The notes under the pieces were generated by a model. That model searched no databases and was not told the DNA's origin. It worked only from the letters and a program-made list of their open reading frames with translations. Made by a program: the position numbers and the translations under genes. Source: Alphaproteobacteria bacterium (GTDB taxonomy: Bacteria > Pseudomonadota > Alphaproteobacteria > Rhizobiales > Aestuariivirgaceae). Taken from it: a stretch of DNA of 48,162 nucleotides. This document shows, one piece after another, positions 41,758-42,720 of the stretch. The stretch is taken from NCBI GenBank assembly GCA_028868255.1, contig JAGWUY010000002.1, forward strand, positions 1 to 48,162, in the 5' to 3' direction. Every line of letters starts with the position of its first letter. Position 1 is the stretch's first letter.

Positions 41758-41856
41758 GTTCAGAATCTCCTCTTCGCGCGGCCATAGCAAATCCGAACGC
41801 GCAAGGTAATCACACCAGAGCGGAATTGATCAGAAACTATCAGATGCTCCAACAAA

Positions 41857-41985
41857 TCCCCTCCCCCTTGTGGGGAGGGTTAGGGTGGGGGTCACTCGAA
41901 ACTCAACAACCATGAAATGACAAGAGCGTAAATTAATTCGCCTGAGCGACCCCCACCCCGGCCCTCCCCACAAGGGGGAGGGGGA
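41857..41985. repeat. MITE-like inverted repeat (CTCCCCCTTGTGGGGAGGG element)
   Basis: Left arm tcccctcccccttgtggggagggttagggtgggggtcac; right arm gcgacccccaccccggccctccccacaagggggagggga; about 129 bp overall with a roughly 50-bp AT-richer centre. Confidence 0.85.
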
Positions 41986-41992
41986 AGGATCA

Positions 41993-42634
41993 CTAAAAAT
42001 TACTCAATAAGAACTGCTCTACAAAGCCGATCACGCTATTCACGTCAGGTTCGCTGATCTTAGACCAATCCGCATGCAATGCTGCATTGCGAATGCGTGG
42101 CATAACATCAAGAAGCGATTTTTGCGCTCCAGAAACAAGACCAGCCCCCTTTAGAGAATTGATGACATCGGTCATTGATTTTTCGTCGGGTGTCAGACCA
42201 TTTGCCAACGCAAACCTCTTCAACGCATCTTCAAGTGCTGCACATGCAAGAACGGCAGCAACATCTTTGTGACCTTCCGAAAGGGATTGCTTGGCTAAAG
42301 CAACAAAATCGCCAAATACTTCACCGGAAATTCTCAAATCCAAATTGCCAGCAAAGCCTGCTTCGAAATCACTGCAAGCACTTTGAAAAACTGCAAATAA
42401 AGCCCTCACGCTGTGTTCGGTGTTATTGCAGTTTTGGTACAAATCTTTGAAATTTCTGGAATGAGGGGAAATGGTACCGAACGAAACCTCTATCAAATTC
42501 TGAGCGCTAGTAGCCCAGTTTCGCCACACACCATTCTGACTAGTTGGAAAACCACCGTGACTGCCAGTGACAAATCGGATATCGCCCAATTGTCCGCGAA
42601 GTTCTTCGTATCTCTTCCGAAATTTTTCTTGCAC
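41993..42634 (-). CDS. Hypothetical protein with C-terminal HEPN-like (abortive-infection/DUF4145-like) domain
   Basis: GTG start with GGAG 8 nt upstream; C-terminal HKDVAAVLACAALEDALKRFALANGL...LLDVMPRIRNAALHADW with RNxxxH motif. Confidence 0.7.
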   Translation of the reverse strand: MQEKFRKRYEELRGQLGDIRFVTGSHGGFPTSQNGVWRNWATSAQNLIEVSFGTISPHSRNFKDLYQNCNNTEHSVRALFAVFQSACSDFEAGFAGNLDLRISGEVFGDFVALAKQSLSEGHKDVAAVLACAALEDALKRFALANGLTPDEKSMTDVINSLKGAGLVSGAQKSLLDVMPRIRNAALHADWSKISEPDVNSVIGFVEQFLLSNF

Positions 42635-42720
42635 GCAAGATTCTCCAGTTCAGACCTGCGCTGCAAATCTGAACTACGAAGAGCTGTTTGGCTAGAGAGT
42701 AATTGGCGCTAGTTTGCCTC

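Follow-up and report, generated by a model that had tools for sequence, protein, structure and literature searches.

The window, a 48,162-nucleotide stretch of an Aestuariivirgaceae genome (Alphaproteobacteria; contig JAGWUY010000002.1), carries at positions 41993..42634 of the reverse strand an intact open reading frame of 213 amino acids, with a GTG start, a TAG stop and a GGAG Shine–Dalgarno sequence about 8 nt 5' of the GTG. Several homologues have the same extent as the encoded protein, which is made up of an N-terminal helical module (residues 1–95; 42350..42634, reverse strand) and a C-terminal HEPN domain (approximately residues 97–213; 41996..42346, reverse strand). A hairpin with a 13–14-bp stem and a 3-nt loop, present as a single copy in the genome, lies in the leader and ends at the Shine–Dalgarno sequence (42647..42675, reverse strand). 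We searched for a sigma-70-like promoter for the gene and found none. Just 3' of the stop codon is a dispersed palindrome (41858..41983, unstranded), the arms of which are 40 nt long and 90% complementary; related sequences occur at about 25 genomic sites, in keeping with the palindrome's description in an earlier note on this DNA as a MITE-like repeat.

The gene lies between xsc and a TIM-barrel gene. The naming of xsc as its neighbour was borne out (TIGR03457 / PRK07525); the closest relatives of this xsc (~85%) are plasmid copies in Rhodobacteraceae. Six congeners have xsc next to the TIM-barrel gene but no HEPN gene there, and what the interval holds differs among congeners: a CPBP protease, an EamA-type transporter, small secreted-looking proteins and, in one case, a RelE/HI1420-type toxin–antitoxin (TA) pair. 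Across the genus, the interval (window 41791-42720 and loci L020-L024 and L041) is a spot of gene turnover. The earlier note had regarded the HEPN gene as the only accessory gene in an otherwise conserved neighbourhood; it is accessory, being absent from all 36 congeners searched, but the interval that it occupies is itself variable.

To place the C-terminal half, we compared the protein with Pfam models. It matched DUF4145 (PF13643) with 25.9 bits against a gathering cut-off of 23.1 (E = 1.1e-5) and scored just under the gathering cut-off of the HEPN model; DUF4145 was also matched by 15/15 close family members in the alignment. A match to Dak2 was also sub-threshold, and the Pfam comparison gave nothing for Abi_C, Abi_2 and ApeA-type HEPN.

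From 15 sequences, AlphaFold gave a model with a mean pLDDT of 83 and a pTM of 0.49, the latter meaning that the placement of the two domains relative to each other cannot be relied on. In the numbering of the model, which runs one lower than that of the protein, the helices of the C-terminal half (97–118, 122–143, 153–162, 169–185 and 194–211) are those of a HEPN bundle. Searching the PDB with Foldseek returned HEPN proteins as the top matches (2q00, 2hsb, 1o3u and 1ufb, each with probability 1.00), with HepT of MntA–HepT somewhat lower in the list. Target TM-scores were 0.54–0.75, and E-values were weak (best 0.12); as no E-value fell below 0.1, the fold match backs the Pfam profile match and cannot stand alone. 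Sequence searches of the PDB, whether by the protein or by its profile, gave no HEPN relative, the fold search being the only one to find any. Nothing significant was found in a viral fold library, where the clearest HEPN-like matches had E-values of 0.45 and 2.3.

The sequence RNAALH, previously read as a HEPN RNase motif, comprises R182 to H187 (42074..42091, reverse strand) and lies at the end of model helix 169–185, which is HEPN helix 3. Taken alone it proves little, because 3.7% of shuffled proteins of the same composition contain R[NDH]x3H (0.85% within residues 151–200); its significance comes from conservation and fold. R182, N183 and H187 did not vary among 14 aligned sequences, the others being 16–62% identical to the window protein, and neither did E135 of the acidic Ex3[K/R] motif E135-D-A-L-K139 in HEPN helix 2 (42218..42232, reverse strand). 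These residues are the active-site elements of HEPN RNases described by Anantharaman et al. (2013, PMC3710099), namely Rx4-6H in which N, D or H follows the R, together with an acidic residue of helix 2 within Ex3[K/R], and RNase activity is therefore well predicted from the sequence. With the profile match, both motifs and the helix bundle present, the protein belongs to the DUF4145/HEPN superfamily, as the earlier note had proposed. It could instead be a non-catalytic HEPN protein that binds nucleic acid or a nucleotide, given that the motif has disappeared from some HEPN families, in which RNA cleavage is not expected (PMC3710099), and that support for catalysis here comes from sequence; yet diverged homologues all keep R, N, H and the Glu of helix 2, as is typical of an active site, and we consider this alternative highly unlikely.

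Residues 1–95 form a separate, conserved helical module with the pattern W..W..S..NLI...FG..SPHY.NF; the two-part layout proposed for the protein, with W...LI..SFG..SPHSRNF in the N-terminal part, is thus real, and the module can now be named. A plasmid search with a homologue's copy of the module led to an Escherichia coli IncX4 protein (L074:3980-4777), the C-terminus of which is a DpnII-MboI restriction domain (PF18742; Pfam E = 5.9e-49). An AbiD gene adjoins the gene of this restriction-type protein. The label on L074:3980-4777 is ‘malate dehydrogenase’, as against the DpnII-MboI REase domain actually present, and the label is found on many plasmids. Aligned with hhalign, the N-terminal modules of the HEPN and DpnII-MboI REase proteins matched with 97.9% probability (E = 3.6e-13), as against <1% for reversed and column-shuffled controls, the comparison having been made with the N-termini of PF18742-domain proteins. 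On this sequence comparison, the module is of the DpnII/MboI-NTD type. Its name and its fusion to a DUF4145 HEPN domain were reported by Anantharaman et al. (PMC3710099), and because “DpnII/MboI-NTD + DUF4145” appears in that 2013 study, the two-module architecture is not new. In one homologue, from Trinickia (L013:5770-6507), a Cys-rich CxxC...CxxC segment replaces the first half of the module, joined in frame.

The gene was absent from a further 24 genomes of the order, as from the congeners (0/24 and 0/36). Of 384 other genomes in the class, one carried a relative at E ≤ 1e-25; relatives at E ≤ 1e-10 occurred in 5 of 398 others of a phylum sample. Close homologues (48–66% identity) are spread over Betaproteobacteria, Gammaproteobacteria, Nitrospirota and Latescibacterota. 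Other homologues are carried by plasmids, several have integrase or resolvase genes nearby, and one, on a contig classed as viral (L018), adjoins a DNA methyltransferase gene and is close to a tail protein gene. Also near this last homologue is a Tox-REase-5 domain protein (L018:8256-8843). Searches of phage records with the protein, a relative and the N-terminal module gave no homologues. Base composition is likewise atypical: with a GC content of 0.449 the gene is the lowest of 37 open reading frames of at least 200 aa (mean 0.535, SD 0.024), and its GC3 is 0.41, compared with about 0.6 in its neighbours. Horizontal transfer was inferred from distribution, base composition and locus context and not from the tree, because a tree of 25 proteins left 12 of 22 inner branches open and resolved little within the family. 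The gene is thus accessory and recently acquired horizontally, and is not vertically conserved between xsc and the TIM-barrel gene; with a HEPN bundle present in the model as well, neither of the outcomes that the earlier note had named as refuting its reading came about. A housekeeping role was rejected on account of the gene's absence from the 36 congeners searched. One homologue, from Chromatiales (L017:5986-6620), is frameshifted or broken in its HEPN half.

HEPN toxins may be encoded beside an MNT antitoxin, which the earlier note had not seen next to this gene; indeed, there was no match to MNT (NTP_transf_2) anywhere on the contig. Extending the search for partners, we compared neighbouring open reading frames all against all at 18 homologue loci, where no neighbour family recurred. 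Shared neighbours were few: they belonged to near-identical loci (L007/L008), were integrases or resolvases, or came from a single pair. Since the homologues share no recurrent neighbour, the gene looks genuinely solo, as the term orphan had implied, and with no MNT on the contig a pairing of the HepT/MntA kind was rejected. The protein could still be the toxin of a TA pair that has an unlinked, RNA or unrecognised antitoxin and that serves maintenance of a plasmid or other element rather than defence. In the HEPN toxins of such pairs the active site is the same (PMC3710099), distant homologues occur on small Acinetobacter plasmids amid other TA genes, and the RelE/HI1420-type pair sits in the very same interval of a congener. 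Against this, the 18 loci yielded no recurrent neighbour, the contig has no MNT, and simple HepT toxins lack an additional N-terminal module, making such a toxin an unlikely explanation, if one of some substance.

The stem of the leader hairpin exceeds the length expected by chance for so short a gap, the z-score of the whole leader being only -1.7, and the hairpin may damp translation of the HEPN gene. It could also be a target or an operator, which would suit an RNase that serves stress responses or regulation, and not defence, by acting on RNA of the host or of an element, and RNA-processing enzymes do exist among HEPN proteins (PMC3710099). However, no comparable hairpin was seen upstream of 20 homologues and the distribution of the family is patchy and horizontal, and we regard such a role as distinctly improbable.

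In its architecture, the protein most resembles the DpnII/MboI-NTD + DUF4145 proteins tabulated by Anantharaman et al. (PMC3710099, Tables 1 and 2), which have the same mostly helical N-terminus of ~100 aa followed by a DUF4145 HEPN domain with Rx4H. Their published prototype is PCC7424_3406, and a plasmid DUF4145 protein of that strain is ~25% identical to the window protein; the solo, mobile subfamily (48–66% identity) was delimited in the present analysis. The DpnII-MboI REase proteins (PF18742, L074) have the N-terminal module in common with it but a DNA-cutting C-terminus in place of HEPN. HepT/MntA shares the HEPN fold and active-site motif, whereas our protein lacks MNT, has the extra N-terminal module and falls in another Pfam family. 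No PADLOC model matched the protein. The start of PDC-S35, a PADLOC candidate for single-gene defence, weakly matched the N-terminal module in several homologues (best E = 5.6e-4, in a homologue); the C-terminal HEPN domain gave no match. DUF4145 has been linked to phage resistance in other settings: in BxaP, a BREX-associated anti-phage protein (PMC10799925), and in Mycobacterium abscessus GD01, for which a DUF4145 protein was suggested to be involved (PMC10465359). BxaP (ORF376) differs in having DUF4145 at its N-terminus and a HEAT-like C-terminus, and in its BREX association, the window gene being without BREX neighbours. The literature searched contained no experiment on the DpnII/MboI-NTD + DUF4145 architecture, and the homologues examined were not consistently within defence islands.

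Taken together, we lean, with little more than even confidence, towards a self-contained HEPN RNase effector, acquired horizontally, that uses its N-terminal module as a switch and probably acts against phage. Sequence and model supply the domains, the intact motif, the mobility, the rarity and the lack of a conserved partner gene; the remainder of the mechanism is inferred from the HEPN family and from the architecture. By analogy with the HEPN family, the HEPN domains would dimerise, the two RNx3H motifs of the dimer would make up one metal-independent RNA-cutting site, and the His would activate the 2'-OH to give products with 2',3'-cyclic ends. As suggested by the architecture, the N-terminal module would take the place of an antitoxin, either keeping the RNase quiet or sensing phage infection. 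Sensing would most likely be via nucleic acid, because the same module elsewhere sits on a DNA-cutting restriction-type domain. Release of the RNase by the module would then stop translation and abort the infection. A bolder version, which we think quite unlikely, is a single-gene defence outside current catalogues, in which a restriction-type module senses foreign nucleic acid and triggers an RNase rather than a DNase, with the hairpin at the ribosome-binding site damping expression.

The type itself was described in 2013, and the window gene adds a further protein of it. Provided that the effector is active, it would amount to a compact RNase defence encoded by one gene, the putative sensor of which can be exchanged with that of a restriction-type enzyme that cuts DNA, and would offer a simple route to learning what the DpnII/MboI-NTD recognises; otherwise, it would be one more mobile HEPN gene.
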